Below, in pieces: positions 5,310 through 13,100 of a stretch of DNA of 13,100 nucleotides (positions are counted from its first letter, which is position 1; every line of letters begins with the position of its first letter). Both the position numbers and the translations under genes were made by a program. Where the stretch lies: the NCBI GenBank assembly GCA_002449595.1, contig DJXE01000040.1, positions 1 to 13,100 of the forward strand. The letters are read 5' to 3'. The DNA comes from Lachnospiraceae bacterium UBA7012 (GTDB taxonomy: Bacteria > Bacillota > Clostridia > Lachnospirales > Lachnospiraceae). A model generated the notes under the pieces. It ran no database searches. It was not told where the DNA came from and saw only the letters and a list, made by a program, of their open reading frames with translations.

Positions 5310-6743
5310 TTACACATTGATCTCCGCTTTGACGCCGAGGTCCTCCTGATATCTGTCGAGGATCGGCTGCACCGTCTCCGCAAGGAACCGGTCCACCTGG
5401 TGCGGCGCGCAGCCGACGTAGCGCGCGGGATCCATGGACTTCTCCAGTTCTTCTCTCGTCAGGTGGAACTCCGGATCCGCCGCGATCAGGTCGAGCAGAT
5501 TGTTGTCGAGCCCCTCTTCCTTGACGCGCCGGCCCGCTTCCATCGAGAGCTGGCGGATCTTCTCGTGCATGACCTGGCGGTCCGCCCCTGCCTTCACTGC
5601 GTCCATCATGATGTTCTCGGTCGCCATGAACGGAAGCTCGCTGCGGAGCCTCTTCTCAATGACCTTCGGATAGACCTTCAGGCCGTCGGTGACGTTGAGG
5701 CACAGATCCAGGATGCCGTCCGTCGCGAGGAATCCCTCCGGGACGGACAGGCGCTTGTTCGCGGAGTCATCCAGCGTGCGCTCGAACCACTGCGTGCCGG
5801 ACGTGATCGCGGGATTCAGGACGTCCGCCATCACGTAGCGCGCGAGCGAGCAGATCCGCTCCGACCGCATGGGATTGCGCTTGTACGCCATCGCCGAGGA
5901 ACCGATCTGGTTCTTCTCGAACGGCTCCTCCACTTCCTTCAGGTGCTGGAGCAGCCGGATATCCGTCGCCATCTTCATCGCGGAGGCGGCGATCCCGCCG
6001 AGGCAGTTCAGGACGATCGTGTCGACCTTTCTGGAGTAGGTCTGCCCGGACACGGGATAGCAGCTCGCGAATCCCATCTTCTCCGCGATCATCGGGTCCA
6101 GGCGGTCGACCTTGTCCAGGTCGCCGTCGAACAGCTCCAGGAAGGACGCCTGCGTCCCCGTCGTGCCCTTGCTGCCGAGGAGCTTCAGGGAGCCTTCCAC
6201 ATGTTCCACTTCCTCCAGGTCCAGAAGGAATTCATTCATCCAGAGCGTCGCCCTCTTTCCGACCGTCGTCGGCTGCGCGGGCTGGAAATGCGTGAAGCCG
6301 AGCGTCGGCAGGTCGCGGTAGGCGCGCGCGAATTTCGCGAGCTCCGCGATCACGTTGACGAGCTTGACGCGGACCAGCCGGAGCGCGTCGCGCATCAGGA
6401 TAATGTCCGTGTTGTCGCCGACGTAGCAGCTCGTCGCGCCGAGGTGGATGATGCCTTTTGCCTTCGGGCACTGGACGCCGAACGCGTAGACGTGGCTCAT
6501 CACGTCGTGCCGGACAAGTTTTTCACGCTCCCGCGCGACGTCATAGTTGATGTCGTCCGCATGGGCTTTCATCTCCTCGATCTGTTCCTCCGTGATCGGA
6601 AGGCCGAGTTCCTTTTCCGTCTCCGCGAGCGCGATCCAGAGCTTTCTCCAGGTCCGGAACTTCATGTCGGGAGAAAAGATGAACTGCATCTCCCTGCTCG
6701 CGTACCGCTGTGACAGCGGACTTACATAAATGTCATTAGCCAT
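5310..6743 (-). CDS. purB: Adenylosuccinate lyase, long type resembling animal ADSL
   Basis: PurB splits fumarate from SAICAR and from adenylosuccinate, so it acts both in IMP synthesis and in the IMP-to-AMP branch. The 477 residues belong to the fumarase/aspartase superfamily. [14 protein letters not shown] (about 100-113), [16 protein letters not shown] (about 149-164) and the flexible signature loop [16 protein letters not shown] (about 284-299) are present, and [14 protein letters not shown] follows. The protein is longer than Bacillus PurB (about 430) and, from memory, looks closer to vertebrate ADSL than to Bacillus PurB along its length. The ATG at 6741-6743 is chosen because GGAGGA sits six bases before it; a further ATG at 6755 is itself part of that ribosome binding site. 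It begins 18 bases after the preceding TPR-like gene, so it is probably cotranscribed, and purA follows. Confidence 0.96.
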
Positions 6744-6761
6744 CGGGTCCTCCATTCGTCC

Positions 6762-7601
6762 TTAAAATGCCGTCGCCCTCGAGAGCCGGTACGACTGTTT
6801 CAGTTCTCCGACGACGCGGCCGAGCTCCACCTCGAAGCTCGTCATCCGGTCGCCGTCCAGATATTCCTTTAATTTGGCCGCCTCTTTGCCGAAGGTCGAC
6901 GAGGCGTAGCCCTTCTCCGCTTCTTCCATCCGCTGCTCGAGCGTCAGGGAGTACTCGTAGGCCTCCGGGTGCTCGGAGATGAAGCGGACATATTCCTCCT
7001 GCGGCAGCTCCAGACGGACCGCCGTCAGGTAGTAGAGATAATTCTCCGGGTCGTGCGTCAGCTCATAGGCGCTGTAGAACGCCTCCGCCGCCATATGGAA
7101 CAGGAACAGCCCGCAGTAGAGCCTTCCCTCCTTCTGCAGCGTCCGCGCGCGCAGCTGCACTTCCGCGCCGGGCAGCGCCTCCAGCACCGCGTCGTACTCG
7201 CGGAGCGCCTCGTGCGTCCTCCCGCTGCCGGCGAGATAGTCGGCGTTGCGGATCCGCTTTTCCACAGGAAGAAGGCCGGTCCCCTCCGACACGGTCTGCC
7301 GGACGGACGCCCTGGTCTCCTTCGGCGCGTAGCCGGTGTACTCGAGGATCGTGTTCACGAACTCCGCGAGCTGCCTGCCGTGGCCGAGGTAATGCGAGAG
7401 CACTTCGGCGAGTTCCTTTAAGCCGCACTCCGTATCGAGCCAGCGCACCAGCTCCGGGTCCATGATGTCCGTGTCCAGGAACTGCGCGCTCTGGAGCAGG
7501 GAGTAACACAGCTCCTCCACCGACCAGATATTGCGCTCCATCCTGCGGATGCGGTATGGCTTCTTCGCCAGTTCTCCTGTTGTCAGAATGATCCTTGTCA
7601 T
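6762..7601 (-). CDS. Helical TPR-like protein of unknown function, third member of the DUF5717/DUF5716 cassette
   Basis: The 279 residues lack a signal peptide or membrane segment and look cytoplasmic. An N-terminal part (about 1-90: MTRIILTTGELAKKPYRI, then EELCYSLLQSAQFL and LVRWLDTECGLKELAEVL) is mostly helical. The middle looks like degenerate tetratricopeptide repeats, one around 118-143 (DYLAGSGRTHEALREYDAVL) and one around 163-190 (FLFHMAAEAFYSAYELTHD). The tail (220-279) is charged and probably coiled. The ATG at 7599-7601 overlaps the TGA of the Hsp70-like gene in an ATGA junction, a sign of translational coupling. A GTG at 7622 would add seven residues and is less likely. Tight coupling suggests it binds the Hsp70-like protein. 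I know no function for the family. Confidence 0.85.
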   Translation of the reverse strand: MTRIILTTGELAKKPYRIRRMERNIWSVEELCYSLLQSAQFLDTDIMDPELVRWLDTECGLKELAEVLSHYLGHGRQLAEFVNTILEYTGYAPKETRASVRQTVSEGTGLLPVEKRIRNADYLAGSGRTHEALREYDAVLEALPGAEVQLRARTLQKEGRLYCGLFLFHMAAEAFYSAYELTHDPENYLYYLTAVRLELPQEEYVRFISEHPEAYEYSLTLEQRMEEAEKGYASSTFGKEAAKLKEYLDGDRMTSFEVELGRVVGELKQSYRLSRATAF

Positions 7602-8857
7602 ACTCTCAGTTCTTTCTCCCACCGGATCCCGCTCGAGGGGAAGATCTCCCCGAACCCGAGATCCGCGATCTCAACGAAAAGCCTGTCCACGCCCCTCATG
7701 GAGAACGACGCGCGGATCCTTGTGGTGCGGCTCGGCCTCACCGGGAGCTCATCGAGACGGATCGTGTACTGTGACTTCTCTCCGCCGTTCAGAGGCCGGA
7801 GCGTCAGCGTGATCTCGTTGCCGTCTTCCAGGATGAAGTCCTCGGTGTGCTGTGCCTCATACCAGTTCACGCCCGCGTCCAGGATCGCGTGGTAGCTCTC
7901 CTCCTCGCCGCGCACCGCGAAGAGCCCGATGTTCGTCTTCAGCTTGTTTTCGCCGAGGAAGAAAAACTTTGCTCCCTGCGACGACGGCTTCATCCGCTCA
8001 AGGGCGCCGTAGGCAGCCCCCTTGCTGAACAGGTTGTTGCCCTGGAAGACGCGCCTGCCGCGGCACAGATACGACAGCGAGGTGCGCATCCAGCCGTCCT
8101 TGAAGCCCTCTCCCAGGAGAAAAGCGCTCCCGACCGCCTGGCCGCTGCACTCGCGGTAGAGGATGTCGTAGAACTCCCTGTCCCGGAGCGCCGGATCCTC
8201 CGAGAGCGCCGTGTAGGAGACGTTCTCCACGTAGCCCACGACGGGGACGGTGTGCGGGTTGTAGATGAGCCGCATCTGGTCGATCCTGTCCGGCGCGTTC
8301 TGCTCGAACAGGTACACCTTCTGCGACCGCATGGAATCGTCCTGGTACAGCATGTAGTTGTAGAAGGACGCGCTGTGGTCCTCGAACAGGAGCCGGATGT
8401 CCTTTAAAGCGAGCAGCTCGCCCGCCTCCTGCAGCACTTCCACCATCCGCTCGTCCATGACCGGGGAGGTGAACATGATCGCCGACACCTCGTCGAGCCG
8501 GACCTCCGACTCCAGAAGGGCGAGGCACCTGCGGATGAACAGCGCGAGCAGCGAGACCGCGCTGAAGCGCTCCCCGTCCGCCTCGATCTCCCCTCCGTAG
8601 AGGGCGCTCTCGAGGATGTGCGAGACCAGCTCTCCCTCACCCTCGCCCGCGTGGAACGCGGCGTCCCTGCCGCAGTACCACTGGGAGGTCCCCTGCTTTC
8701 TGCAAAGCAGCGTCGGGATGCTGAACTCCTCCCGGTCGGGCGTCAATGAGAGCGTCACGGGATCCGCTTTTCCAATGCAGTATGAGATCTGGCAGAAGTC
8801 ATCCTGCAGATCGAATCCCACCATATATTTTCGGTCGACTGATTTAATGAACAGCAT
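7598..8857 (-). CDS. Hsp70/actin-fold-like protein, probably DUF5716 family, unknown function
   Basis: The 419-residue cytoplasmic protein follows the order of an Hsp70 nucleotide-binding domain. A first-strand motif VGFDLQDDFCQISY (13-26) sits where Hsp70 has GIDLGTTNS. Next come EEFSIPTLL and YCGRDAA (43-67), then FTSPVMDERMVEVLQEAGEL (129-148) and LFEDHSASFYNYML (157-170), like the VPAxFxxxQRxA and EPTAAAxAYGL stretches. GSAFLLGEGFKDGW (243-256) and NNLFSKGAAYGAL (274-286) resemble the adenosine motif and the VAxGAA helix. The tail (about 298-419, ending GFGEIFPSSGIRW) is beta-rich, like a substrate-binding sandwich. Both phosphate loops are degraded: no GTT, and FEQNAPD in place of DLGGGT. 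It starts 48 bases after the 1211-residue gene and overlaps the next gene by ATGA. The family name is from memory. Confidence 0.85.
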   Translation of the reverse strand: MLFIKSVDRKYMVGFDLQDDFCQISYCIGKADPVTLSLTPDREEFSIPTLLCRKQGTSQWYCGRDAAFHAGEGEGELVSHILESALYGGEIEADGERFSAVSLLALFIRRCLALLESEVRLDEVSAIMFTSPVMDERMVEVLQEAGELLALKDIRLLFEDHSASFYNYMLYQDDSMRSQKVYLFEQNAPDRIDQMRLIYNPHTVPVVGYVENVSYTALSEDPALRDREFYDILYRECSGQAVGSAFLLGEGFKDGWMRTSLSYLCRGRRVFQGNNLFSKGAAYGALERMKPSSQGAKFFFLGENKLKTNIGLFAVRGEEESYHAILDAGVNWYEAQHTEDFILEDGNEITLTLRPLNGGEKSQYTIRLDELPVRPSRTTRIRASFSMRGVDRLFVEIADLGFGEIFPSSGIRWEKELRV

Positions 8858-8870
8858 TCACTACCACCGC

Positions 8871-8885
8871 TCCGGCAAAGCCGGA
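8871..8885 (-). other. Short hairpin between the DUF5717-like and DUF5716-like genes
   Basis: TCCGGC-TTT-GCCGGA forms a six-pair stem with a three-base loop in the 48-base spacer, 13 bases before the ATG of the Hsp70-like gene. No T-run follows, so it should not end transcription. It could tune stability or translation of the second gene, whose ribosome binding site (GGTGGT) is poor. Confidence 0.35.
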
Positions 8886-8905
8886 TAGCCAACAAACAGC
8901 AAAAC

Positions 8906-11900
8906 TTACTCTTTCTTCCACTCGAACAGCGTGTCCGCGAGATACGACAGGCGGCTGTACTCCCGCAGCGCCTGGTACGCTTCACGGCTCTTCTTGAGCG
9001 CCGCGTTCATCGCGATCGAGTTGATCATGCCGAACCGCTGCGTGCTCTGATCCATGACGCGCACGTCCTGGCCGGCCGTGCCGCTCTCGACGATGTTCTT
9101 CTCCTCCGGGTCGTCCGTGATGAAGTAGTGCATCTGCTCCCCGAAGAACAGCAGGAATCCGGTCACGTAGATGCCTTCGTACATCTCCTTCATGACCTGG
9201 GACGTGAAGACGACGCTCTTGTCGTCCTCGTCCATCGCGTAGTGGAAGACGACGTGCTGTCCGCCTCTCCCGCCCGCGTACTCGACGAGCGTCTGGTCCG
9301 CGTATGCCGCGAGCTCCGGCACAAATCCGATGAACTGCCTAAAGAACGGGAAGATGATCTCCTGGCGGAGCAGGTCTCCTAAGAAGAGCCTCACCACTTC
9401 CTCGTCGGAAGGCGAGATCTCTGTGCCGGACTCGGCGCAGTATTTCAGCCACGCGATCCGGCAGATGTCCAGCAGCGGGACGCCCCGCAGACCGAAGGAA
9501 GATGCCATCTCCGCGAGCTGCGGCGGATAAGGGCCGCCTGCCGTCACGTACAGATGCGATACCTGTGCGAGCGCGCCCGCGAGCAGTTCCGTGTCCGCTC
9601 CGCCTTCTCTCGCCCGCAGGATCAGTTCCTCCTGGTGCTCCGTCACCGCGCCGCTGTAGAGGATCTGGATCAGTTCCCGCCGGACGAGCGCGTAGTCGTC
9701 CAGGTCAAATCCGTTCAGGGATCCGCGGATCTGTTCCAGTTCCGATGTGAGTCCCTCGAAGCTGCGGCCCAGGTACCAGAGGGTGTTCTGGTTGTATCTG
9801 CCCGCCTGATATGCGTCAAACGCGATCTGCGCGAATCCGGCGTCGTCCCGGATATCCTGCTGTTCGAGCGCCTGCGTGCACAGGCGGACGAGCGTGTCGC
9901 CGGAGACGCCGTAGGTGCCGTACCGCCTCACCCAGTCGAGGGCCTTCTCGCAGAGCTCCTCCTTCACCAGGTAGCGGATCAGGTCTCCCCGCTGCGCCGC
10001 CGTGAGCTCCTCCGGCCCGACCTGCATCAGGTAGCTGTCCATCTCGCGGAGGCAGTCATTGTCTTCGTAATACTTCAGGAGCCGCATCCGGATGTCCCTG
10101 CGCGTGTCCGGGAGCAGGCGGTCCGACTGCGCGAGCCGCAGGAACCGCGGCGCGTTCTGCGCCGTCACCTCGAACCCGGGGGCGGTCATCCCCGACAGGT
10201 ACATGTCAAAACCGAAATCCGACACGTCATACTGGGCGAGGATCTCAGCGAGTCCCTCCGTGTCCAGCATCCGGTCGAACGTATAGGCACAGCTCTGCGC
10301 GTAGCGCATGCCGTAGTGGTCCTCGAAGAAGATCTGGTTGCGGTCGCCGTAGACCGGGAGGTACGCCGTCCCGTTCTCGAGCGGATACACTTCCTCCCCT
10401 CTGCAGCCCGCGTAGCGCAGGATGACGTTTTTCATCATCGTGCGGTTCGTGCGGACCACGGCGGTGAAAGCGAGCGGCACCGCGCTCTGCGCCGTCGGCA
10501 GGTCGAGCGCGTACGTGCGCAGGAACAGTCCCTGCAGGTATCCGAGGTCGCGCCCGGTCCTTCCGGCCATGATCTGCTCCAGCGCAAACCGCTCGATCTG
10601 CGGCTCATACTGCAGATACAGATCCGGGAACTGCTCTTTCCTGCGGTACACATAGCGGTAGAGCGCCGCCGTCTTTTTCCACGGGAGCGAGCACTGGTAG
10701 GCAAAGTACATCAGCACCATCCGCGGGATCTCGCCCTCGAAGTCCTCAGGGAGCGAGAGCATGAAATACTCGAAGAGACGCGTGATCTGCAGTCCCTCTT
10801 CCACGCCGCGCCGGTACCAGTCGTGATATTCTTCATCGGTCCTGTTTCCCCTGACGAGAAGCGCGCAGATGCTCTCCAGCGTCTCCTTCTTCAGGGAGGG
10901 CGTGCCGCACTGCTCATAGCCGCTGCACAGGATCTTGTAAAGCTTCGTGGAGAACATCCTCTCCCGCCGCGACAGGTTGTTCAGCTGTGTCAGGACAGAC
11001 TCCATGAGGAGTCCCTTCCGCGCCGCGTAGAGCAGCAGCTGGATCGCGAACGAATCCAGTTCCATCAGCATGGAAGGATTCTGGGCGAGCCGGAAGTAGG
11101 CCTCCAGATAGATGACCGGGCTCCTCGAACCGTAGGAGAATTCCTCCGCCATGAGGCGGTACGCCGCGGACGGCCTTCCCGAATACTCCTCCGAATAATA
11201 GAGGAGAAGCCACGCAATGCGCCAGTTCCCCGGCTCCCGCTTGTGGTACTCCTCGAGCAGCGTCGTGACGTCGGCAGTCAGCTGCGCGTCCTCGGGATGG
11301 AGGAGCGACGTCAGGTAGATGCGGTAGCAAAACTCCGCGGACGTCTCCCCCTCGTACTGCAGGAGCGGATCGGCGGAGGCGTCTCCGGAGAGGCGGCGCA
11401 GGAGCTTGTCCAGCGCGGTCTGCGCGCGCTGCGCGTCCCCGTCCGTCACGAGCGCGTGGATCTGGTACAGCACCGGCGCGGGGTCGTCCCGCTCCATGGA
11501 GGATAGGCGCTCCGCGATCTGCGCGGATTCCTTCACCCACTCGGCGCTGCGGATCCTGCGGGAGCGGTACTCCTCGAAGCGCTCCATCAGCTTCCGGTTC
11601 AGTTCCTTCTTCTCTCTGTGGTACAGGCTCGTCGATCCCGGCACGCTGCGCACGGATACGACGACCGGCACGCTGAGTGCCGCAAACGGGGCCAGAAGCA
11701 GGACCTGTCCGTAGTTCTTCCCCGCGTGAAGCTTCGACGTCTCGATCCGGAGGCGGAGCTGGGTGCTGCTTCCGGTGAAGTCGTGCTCCCGGAGGATATT
11801 CTCCGCGGCGCTCAGGAAATCCCCGTGGATCTCCGGCTTCAGGGAGATATATCCCCAGCCGTTCTTGCTGATGCGCAGGACGTATTCGATGGCCTCCTGC

Positions 11901-12541
11901 CCCGTGATCCTCGCGTAGGGCAGGTCCAGGCGGATCTGCTGGACTTCCGAGAGGAACTGGACCGGCTGCTTCTTCTGCGTCGCGATCAGGAACTCCTCGA
12001 CGTTCTGCTCGTTGCCGGCCTGGACGGACAGTCCGTCATACAGTCCCCTCTCCTTTTCTTCCTGTTCTGTGAAAATGTTCCGGAATCCCTCGCTGTAAAA
12101 GAGCTGTACGGCCTCGTGCCAGTTCGCCTTCGCGAGGTTCGCGAAATAAGACAGGGTCGGCACCGGCCCGATCGAGGACTGCAGCGCACCCTGCTGCACG
12201 GAAATATGGTAAGGGAGCGCGTACTCCCCGTTGTTAGAGATGATGCGGAAGCACCCGTCAAGCTCGTCTCCCGCGGAAAACGCGGATGCGTCCGCGCGGT
12301 ACATGACCGTGTCCGAAGCGCCGGAAAACGTCTCCGTCAGGCACTGCACGCAGGCCCTCGACGAGGAGACGAATCCCTCCGCGGCGCGCCCTTCCGGCGC
12401 CGTGATCTGAAAGCTCCCCTCGAGGACTTCCCCCGGCGTGAGCGTCAGGTCGATATGATCTTCGGAAAAAGTCAGCGGCTCATATTTGATATGAAATGCG
12501 TCGCCAGACATCCTCTCGGAAAAAGACTGACTGGAAAACAT
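8906..12541 (-). CDS. Giant multi-module solenoid protein, probably DUF5717 family, unknown function
   Basis: The 1211 residues contain no signal peptide or membrane helix. The N-terminus has two beta-sandwich-like modules, about 20-117 (ending FRIISNNGEYALPYHISV) and about 203-300 (KNGWG, then LHAGKNYGQVLLL), joined by a helical linker with SYFANLAKANWHEAVQLFY (131-149). Residue 305 onward is mostly helical pairs like a TPR or HEAT solenoid. It is interrupted by a strand-rich insert (about 690-750: NGTAYLPVYGDRNQIFFED) and closed by another strand-rich unit (about 1095-1150: YEGIYVTGFLLFFGEQMHYF). A helical tail ends at 1211. The ATG at 12539-12541 has AGGGGA at 12548-12553, spacer six, and a promoter just upstream. 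This looks like a protein-interaction scaffold for the Hsp70-like protein encoded next. No enzyme motif is visible. The family name is recalled, not searched. Confidence 0.87.
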   Translation of the reverse strand: MFSSQSFSERMSGDAFHIKYEPLTFSEDHIDLTLTPGEVLEGSFQITAPEGRAAEGFVSSSRACVQCLTETFSGASDTVMYRADASAFSAGDELDGCFRIISNNGEYALPYHISVQQGALQSSIGPVPTLSYFANLAKANWHEAVQLFYSEGFRNIFTEQEEKERGLYDGLSVQAGNEQNVEEFLIATQKKQPVQFLSEVQQIRLDLPYARITGQEAIEYVLRISKNGWGYISLKPEIHGDFLSAAENILREHDFTGSSTQLRLRIETSKLHAGKNYGQVLLLAPFAALSVPVVVSVRSVPGSTSLYHREKKELNRKLMERFEEYRSRRIRSAEWVKESAQIAERLSSMERDDPAPVLYQIHALVTDGDAQRAQTALDKLLRRLSGDASADPLLQYEGETSAEFCYRIYLTSLLHPEDAQLTADVTTLLEEYHKREPGNWRIAWLLLYYSEEYSGRPSAAYRLMAEEFSYGSRSPVIYLEAYFRLAQNPSMLMELDSFAIQLLLYAARKGLLMESVLTQLNNLSRRERMFSTKLYKILCSGYEQCGTPSLKKETLESICALLVRGNRTDEEYHDWYRRGVEEGLQITRLFEYFMLSLPEDFEGEIPRMVLMYFAYQCSLPWKKTAALYRYVYRRKEQFPDLYLQYEPQIERFALEQIMAGRTGRDLGYLQGLFLRTYALDLPTAQSAVPLAFTAVVRTNRTMMKNVILRYAGCRGEEVYPLENGTAYLPVYGDRNQIFFEDHYGMRYAQSCAYTFDRMLDTEGLAEILAQYDVSDFGFDMYLSGMTAPGFEVTAQNAPRFLRLAQSDRLLPDTRRDIRMRLLKYYEDNDCLREMDSYLMQVGPEELTAAQRGDLIRYLVKEELCEKALDWVRRYGTYGVSGDTLVRLCTQALEQQDIRDDAGFAQIAFDAYQAGRYNQNTLWYLGRSFEGLTSELEQIRGSLNGFDLDDYALVRRELIQILYSGAVTEHQEELILRAREGGADTELLAGALAQVSHLYVTAGGPYPPQLAEMASSFGLRGVPLLDICRIAWLKYCAESGTEISPSDEEVVRLFLGDLLRQEIIFPFFRQFIGFVPELAAYADQTLVEYAGGRGGQHVVFHYAMDEDDKSVVFTSQVMKEMYEGIYVTGFLLFFGEQMHYFITDDPEEKNIVESGTAGQDVRVMDQSTQRFGMINSIAMNAALKKSREAYQALREYSRLSYLADTLFEWKKE

Positions 12542-12635: not shown

Positions 12636-12665
12636 AAAGATGCCCCCGGGAGTTCCGGGGGCATC
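12636..12665 (-). terminator. Strong hairpin terminator after the last minus-strand gene
   Basis: A perfect eleven-pair inverted repeat, GATGCCCCCGG with CCGGGGGCATC (12665-12655 with 12649-12639; five-base loop), lies 34 bases after the stop at 12700 and just before the promoter of the next unit. Only three T residues follow, so termination may be incomplete. It separates the two minus-strand transcription units. Confidence 0.65.
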
Positions 12666-12699: not shown

Positions 12700-13100
12700 T
12701 CAGTGCTGCTGGGCAGCATGCTCAGCGGCATCCAGGAATTCCAGAAATCCCTTCGAGGCTGCGAATCTGGCCGCACCGGCGGCCTGTGTCTTGGTATCGA
12801 TCCTCGCGTTCCCAAGGGTATTATCGCGGCCATTTGTGGCGTGGATGTAATACGCCTTCATCGTGTCTTTGAAGCTCTGTTCCGCGATAGCTAAGGTCTG
12901 TTCAGCAGCAGTCACATGGTCCCGGAATTCGCCTTCCGTCATGTGGTTCTGGGAGTAATTATTCGCATACATGGACCTCATCTCATTCCTGATGTTATTC
13001 CGCAGATTAAGGTAGTTCTGAAGCGCATTCTTCGCATTCGTGTAAGTGTTCCCTCGAGTGTATATATGCAGGCGGGATAAATAATCCATGCAGAGACAAA
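12700..13100 (-). CDS. C-terminal part of an unrecognised helical protein
   Basis: The frame is open from the TGA at 12700 to the window edge. The first visible ATG (13087-13089) has no ribosome binding site in the 11 bases before it, so the gene most likely begins outside the window. From that ATG it reads 129 residues, strongly helical and polar: tyrosine- and asparagine-rich at first (SRLHIYTRGNTYTNAKNALQ), then AEQTLAIAEQSFKDTMKAYY and an alanine-rich end (AAGAARFAASKGFLEFLDAA). No membrane helix is visible. Hand counts give about 51% GC across the gene and 42-52% in its upstream half, against about 60% for neighbouring genes. I do not recognise it. It could be the tail of a larger protein, possibly acquired or simply under different codon use. 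A hairpin terminator follows. Confidence 0.6.
   Translation of the reverse strand, partial: CLCMDYLSRLHIYTRGNTYTNAKNALQNYLNLRNNIRNEMRSMYANNYSQNHMTEGEFRDHVTAAEQTLAIAEQSFKDTMKAYYIHATNGRDNTLGNARIDTKTQAAGAARFAASKGFLEFLDAAEHAAQQH

Follow-up and report, generated by a model that had tools for sequence, protein, structure and literature searches.

We analysed a contig of 13,100 bases from Lachnospiraceae bacterium UBA7012 (GCA_002449595.1, contig DJXE01000040.1, here G000:C13), a member of the order Lachnospirales whose genome is 63% complete; the entire contig is referred to as the window. Its minus strand carries three adjacent genes, which encode a large protein of family DUF5717, an Hsp70-like protein of family DUF5716 and a small TPR-like protein (Table 1). 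A preliminary description of the window had reported three adjacent minus-strand genes, separated by 48 bases and then by an ATGA overlap of stop and start codons, and had assigned the two larger products to these families. The open reading frames (ORFs) and both spacings were found as described, and the assignments proved right, with Pfam scores of 843 bits for PF18984 and 228 bits for PF18983 (cut-off 25 for each, with nearly the full model covered) in DUF5717 and of 299 bits for PF18980 (cut-off 34.7) in DUF5716. Both families, to which the window proteins belong with scores well beyond the curated cut-offs, are already catalogued. The Pfam entries describe them solely as families of unknown function, however, and mention neither the Hsp70 operon nor the dead ATPase site and missing subdomain IIB length described below; no paper on the function of DUF5716 or DUF5717 was found in the open-access PMC literature, where the one listing retrieved for DUF5716 was an unrelated cancer paper.

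Table 1. Positions of the three genes, their protein regions and neighbouring features in the window
Feature	Position	Strand	Remarks
DUF5717 gene	8906–12541	−	ORF, 1211 residues; PF18984 and PF18983 profile matches
Two β-sandwiches, PapD-like/ASH (hydin) type, helices between	11645–12478	−	DUF5717 residues ∼22–299; structure matches
Helical solenoid, β insert at residues 693–757	9302–11638	−	DUF5717 residues ∼302–1080; model secondary structure
DUF5716 gene	7598–8857	−	ORF, 419 residues; Hsp70 NBD and SBD-β fold, no lid
Relic phosphate-2 position to adenosine-motif position, missing subdomain IIB	8123–8317	−	Motif spacing
Small TPR-like protein	6762–7601	−	279 residues from the ATG overlapping the DUF5716 stop
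Spacer DUF5717/DUF5716	8858–8905	−	48 bases; small CCGG-loop-CCGG palindrome, no T-run (by inspection)
purB, directly downstream of the TPR gene	5310–6755	−	ORF starts 6 bases past the TPR stop
Strong hairpin, rich in G+C, separating the operon from the gene upstream	12639–12665	−	12 pairs

Architecture of the three proteins

The DUF5716 protein has the fold of an actin-like nucleotide-binding domain (NBD) followed by the β part of a substrate-binding domain (SBD-β), which places it in the Hsp70 superfamily. Its end aligns at DnaK residue 503, and the SBD-α lid is absent. Neither the phosphate-1 motif GxDxGTT nor the phosphate-2 motif DxGGGT is present in any of 13 Lachnospiraceae members; in a further genome (L056) a simple gene caller lost the gene to an ORF on the opposite strand, so the motif and spacing tables have 13 rather than 14 Lachnospiraceae rows. 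Among 57 relatives hand-picked from 120 listed homologues of 1444, none has GTT[NS] near the N-terminus and none has GGGT at the phosphate-2 columns (one has GGGT elsewhere). Between the relic phosphate-2 position and the adenosine motif lie 64 residues in the window protein and 63–89 in the same 57 relatives, compared with 144 (median) for the orthologous slot in other families (see below) and 142 in two DnaKs. The shortfall of ∼70 residues lies where Hsp70s carry subdomain IIB, which contacts GrpE and clamps the nucleotide. The median length of the protein is 419 residues in the Lachnospiraceae (n = 13) versus 523 in the corresponding slot 2 of full operons (n = 19). The preliminary description had called the Hsp70-like member unusual, which can now be made precise as the absence of both phosphate motifs, of the IIB length and of the lid.

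The AlphaFold2 model of DUF5717 (residues 1–1200; pLDDT 87, pTM 0.64) contains two PapD/ASH-like β-sandwiches, a helical solenoid with a β insert and a C-terminal β region, in agreement with the sandwich modules and solenoid anticipated from the sequence. Structural matches of the sandwiches include ciliary central-pair proteins, and the solenoid weakly matches TPR superhelices (Ski3, Ctr9 and Naa15) and separase. The TPR-like call is weak for the window's small protein taken alone, the best TPR match of which has an E value of 0.047 (below the cut-off, with none at 0.01), but TPR_2 is matched by nine of 27 aligned relatives, and a longer protein of the same BLAST cluster, found in locus L032, matches it at 5e-26. 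This cluster unites the window protein with the 382–393-residue TPR protein of an extended operon; the median lengths are 278 residues in the Lachnospiraceae (n = 14) and 387 residues in the extended operon (n = 15). The reported lack of signal peptides and membrane helices is in line with a hydropathy scan, in which none of the three proteins showed an N-terminal hydrophobic stretch, although no predictor dedicated to signal peptides or membrane segments was applied; the 19-residue peak of DUF5717 (2.12) falls in a predicted β region and the peak of DUF5716 (1.63) within a predicted helix of the NBD.

The longer operon and its probable reduction in the Lachnospiraceae

The extended operon came to light in gene neighbourhoods, up to 20 kb long, from other families of this order. 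In L032 the gene order is DUF5717, an Hsp70 (slot 1; PF00012, 5e-76), a coiled-coil protein with a C-terminal GrpE domain (PF01025, 3e-13), a DUF5716-like protein (slot 2; PF18980 at 1.5e-26 and HSP70 at 1.4e-17), a second Hsp70 (slot 3; 7e-63), an Hsp70 fused to a VWA domain (slot 4; Hsp70 at 4.5e-96 and VWA at 2e-10) and the TPR protein. Three of the Hsp70s encoded by the operon (slots 1, 3 and 4) have intact ATPase motifs and stand alongside a GrpE-domain protein; the sole PDB relative of the coiled-coil profile is GrpE (4ani, E 0.001). The window ORFs include neither intact-motif Hsp70s nor a GrpE-domain protein. These relatives lend support to the earlier proposal of an undescribed chaperone or scaffold system, whereas the complex that it envisaged stays conjectural.

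When named genomes were searched with the VWA part, 79 loci emerged, including those of Defluviitalea phaphyphila Alg1 and Petrocella sp. FN5; some are the same contigs as profile-source genomes (for example L068 and L035), so the count is not fully independent. Profile annotation recovered slot 4 in all 79, slot 3 in 64, the TPR protein in 50, slot 2 in 46, the GrpE coiled coil in 43, slot 1 in 41, DUF5717 in 31 and a membrane coiled coil in seven, with many of the stretches stopping at contig borders or short of the DUF5717 position. In some loci (such as L140 and L143) no slot 2 or TPR match was found at the expected place. The gene order is constant wherever parts were seen, except for extra Hsp70- or TPR-type matches (L077, L129 and L130). 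Some loci continue with a coiled-coil protein bearing two adjacent hydrophobic segments and then a valS-like gene, and the upstream flank is a divergent aminotransferase-like gene, both names coming from reading the sequences rather than from a profile search. Some Lachnospiraceae loci (L053, L054 and L056) have the same flanks, which suggests that the short and extended forms are one locus with differing content. The three-gene cassette of the preliminary description is real but was drawn too narrowly, as seven or eight genes make up the longer unit and the trio is often joined by the membrane coiled coil, present in 43 of 100 Lachnospiraceae genomes and adjacent in 42.

Several features of individual loci were also seen. 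In family f22 (L034, L041, L063 and L064) DUF5717 is a single protein of 931–1006 residues (∼1300 elsewhere among full-operon loci), and slot 2 has diverged strongly; that of L041 (412 residues) was missed by the first clustering and recognized by profile (E 9.8e-14). In L040 (G003, family f4), the nearest full-operon relative, slot 4 is broken into two ORFs, and so is the TPR gene, perhaps through ongoing decay or a sequencing error. A further coiled-coil gene (390–482 residues, cluster C7) lies directly upstream of DUF5717 in L033, L039, L043, L045, L046, L048 and L049. L050, the stretch of which lacks DUF5717, was excluded from the gene-order and motif tables. The Hsp70-VWA fusion (L032:3497–5572 and 16 homologues) contains DTTGSMD, which we take to be a metal-site-like motif. 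In a class-wide sample in which 117 of 118 genomes had some match to it, no single match among those listed covered both parts; these either were DnaK-type and stopped no later than model position 495 or were confined to the VWA part.

In the Lachnospiraceae, DUF5716 was found in 145 and DUF5717 in 147 of 150 sampled genera, from which we conclude that the remnant is maintained rather than decaying, and DUF5716 is a single match in 143 of the 145. The two genes are adjacent on one strand in 138 of 142 genomes and on different contigs in the other four (142 being the family genomes with both positions known; 144 of 147 genomes were used, with the first-listed DUF5717 rows, omitting second fragments of a few genomes). 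This adjacency is far beyond chance, and the regular scattering that would speak against a common system was not seen for the two large genes. Across 146 genomes of the order, DUF5716 was found in 71, DUF5717 in 75 and, by comparison of the two lists, both in 69, where the first tally mixes slots because PF18980 also matches slot 3 weakly. Outside the order the families are rare: six of 148 genomes in the class sample were positive (five Lachnospiraceae and one weak 21-bit match), as were four of 249 in the phylum sample, all Lachnospiraceae. Defence systems are normally patchy in distribution, and this near-universal, mostly single-copy presence in one family makes it very improbable that the trio is a conflict or anti-phage system akin to the Hsp70/GrpE/FNIII-TPR theme of the GAP1-N2 GTPase systems. 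The chromosomal flanks are shared among relatives, Pfam scans of the core proteins (the window trio and L032) gave no GTPase, the three proteins have no PADLOC match at E 1 and there is no plasmid match; a defence island was rejected on the last two grounds together with the near-universal presence. The parts list nevertheless resembles that of the GAP1-N2 systems (PMC7159879), and four human-fecal, unannotated 'Bacteriophage sp.' records (MT835719, MT835486, MT835988 and MT837634) encode DUF5716 homologues of 23–30% identity. Since the records are unannotated and the one inspected is labelled UNVERIFIED, we treat them as possibly bacterial scaffolds and do not take them as evidence of phage carriage.

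The direction of change was examined with a DnaK tree rooted with eight genomes from other orders. Twelve Lachnospiraceae group with f4, which has the full operon (support 100/99), f22 (full operon in two of the three genomes used) adjoins this set (99/92), and f7, f24, f16 and f11 lie outside, with less certainty at the deeper forks. Because the tree places the Lachnospiraceae among full-operon families, the short form is well supported as a reduction of the longer operon. In a tree of the Hsp70-like proteins (FastTree, with long-branch warnings), Lachnospiraceae DUF5716 groups with slot 2 of f4. The Lachnospiraceae have kept DUF5717, DUF5716, the TPR protein and, in the 43 genomes noted above, the membrane protein, and the members examined lack the three active Hsp70s and the GrpE-domain protein. 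GrpE above the cut-off is present in one copy in 14 of 14 Lachnospiraceae genomes and in two copies in nine of nine full-operon genomes. The slot 4 VWA part gave only weak partial matches, in five of 100 Lachnospiraceae genomes. The lost Hsp70s were not found elsewhere in the family: ten places with an extra Hsp70 were tested, drawn from the matches listed at about 25 bits or more, and all nine with a profile match were best matched as DnaK rather than slots 1–4 (the DnaK profile being built from 34 rows that include the families tested), while G000:C106 (26 bits) gave no profile match. A second DnaK-type Hsp70 of ∼563–594 residues, unlinked to the operon, occurs in several family and full-operon genomes (L184–L188, L190 and L194–L195).

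Origin and possible role of the trio

We think it somewhat more probable than not that the trio is the retained core of an ancestral Hsp70 machine encoded at this locus, with DUF5716 acting as an ATP-cycle-independent module in a stable complex. The three proteins may form such a complex with DUF5716 as its binding module. DUF5716 would no longer run the ATP/GrpE cycle and, being lidless, would be a constitutively open binding module, kept in place by the sandwiches and solenoid of DUF5717 together with the TPR protein; in many species the neighbouring two-helix coiled-coil protein could anchor the assembly to the membrane. The complex might retain a client or partner, or set its position, without ATP use, or pass a client on to the housekeeping DnaK/GrpE. 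In its logic such an assembly resembles Ssz1 of the yeast ribosome-associated complex (RAC), the nearest tested precedent, a lidless, non-hydrolysing Hsp70 that is nonetheless functional in RAC. The loss of the IIB length parallels the loss of the operon's own GrpE protein. A fuller history, which we advance tentatively and at a little less than even odds, is that an early, undescribed, multi-Hsp70, membrane-associated machine of one clostridial order, in which three ATPases (one an Hsp70-VWA fusion) and a single pseudo-Hsp70 were accompanied by a GrpE coiled coil, a TPR protein and an ASH-domain solenoid, became in the Lachnospiraceae a static scaffold without its engine, the exchange factor and its docking subdomain being lost together.

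Several points weigh against this account. The missing stretch was named subdomain IIB by motif spacing and not by an inspected superposition, and nucleotide might still bind in some other way despite the degraded phosphate site. Both phosphate motifs are already missing from slot 2 in full-operon families, so that its IIB may never have served the operon GrpE, and the parallel loss of IIB and GrpE, correlated in a single evolutionary event, does not prove that one depended on the other. In the DnaK tree the split between the Lachnospiraceae and f4 is not firm (79/37), support drops below 95 at several deeper forks, and five genomes of the order without the system are scattered, which we read as separate losses. 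The membrane coiled coil was not found in the incomplete window genome.

Two other roles were weighed. The Hsp70/actin fold might be merely an architectural element of an envelope-associated structural or cytoskeletal scaffold that binds no client; ASH/hydin-type sandwiches and solenoids are known in large scaffolds, ciliary central-pair proteins among them, a membrane coiled coil often adjoins the trio and slot 4 of the relatives bears a VWA domain. We regard this as decidedly unlikely, since the longer operon, with GrpE and three intact-motif Hsp70s, suggests descent from a chaperone. The trio might instead capture clients and pass them to the housekeeping DnaK, which would supply the ATPase, with DUF5716 in the role of Ssz1 in the yeast RAC. 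Ssz1 retains ATP binding and has the J-protein Zuo1 as its partner, whereas the nucleotide cleft of DUF5716 appears to lack a subdomain and no J-domain was found in the window trio or the seven core proteins scanned in L032. As the DnaK-activating part of RAC is therefore missing, a RAC-like co-chaperone is also unlikely, if somewhat less so than the scaffold without clients.

To return to the retained Hsp70 core, the system can be set beside those already described. It shares with DnaK/GrpE the NBD and SBD-β fold, and its operon relatives encode intact-motif Hsp70s and a GrpE domain; the window member, unlike DnaK, has no phosphate motifs, IIB length, lid, adjacent GrpE gene or operon J-protein. 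The closest described assembly is that of the GAP1-N2 GTPase systems (Kaur et al., 2020; PMC7159879), which are described as acting in biological conflict and combine HSP70 and GrpE with FNIII fused to TPR or DnaJ; a reduced Hsp70 and a β-sandwich and TPR protein are further points of likeness. By comparison, the present system has no GTPase among the scanned core proteins, has an Hsp70-VWA fusion in relatives and is nearly core rather than patchy in distribution, and in its window version the active Hsp70s are gone, as is the GrpE protein. In the CoCoNuT systems (PMC11090510), CnuD has an Hsp70-like domain with degenerate ATPase features beside helical repeats, with VWA-containing TerY-P modules nearby; no McrB GTPase or nuclease was seen among the core proteins scanned in L032.

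On this account two uncharacterized families, near-universal in a dominant family of gut bacteria, gain a concrete origin and a testable mechanism. If the proposal holds, a bacterial Hsp70 system has evolved from an ATP-driven machine into a static scaffold that is kept almost without exception, and the natural series from active Hsp70s through a pseudo-Hsp70 with IIB to one without it asks what an Hsp70 fold does after the ATP cycle is gone, yeast Ssz1 being the precedent to which we refer.

Transcriptional context and neighbouring genes

The shared promoter that had been proposed for the three genes was not demonstrated: a scan of both strands gave a single promoter-like site (12986–12958, minus strand), where chance alone would give 2.8, and this one falls within the upstream gene. 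The hairpin of Table 1 is scored as a terminator-like site on the plus strand, and its stem reads on both strands. Upstream of it lies a gene for a protein of 129 residues (12700–13089, minus strand) of unassigned family, with a sub-threshold Peptidase_M6 match only. This match (E 0.01) was discarded as below the cut-off, as were Pfam matches to S-adenosylhomocysteine hydrolase (0.03) and GpA nuclease (0.14).

The ORF of the TPR gene as listed opens at an upstream GTG (7622); the coordinates in Table 1 are those from the ATG. The likely start of purB, by inspection, is the ATG at 6741 behind GGAGG, ∼20 bases or less past the TPR stop, and since purB follows so closely the transcript of the three genes may run on into purB–purA. 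The downstream context of the window is different from that of many related genomes: here purB starts almost at once after the TPR gene (6741–6762), while there the neighbouring gene is the membrane coiled coil.

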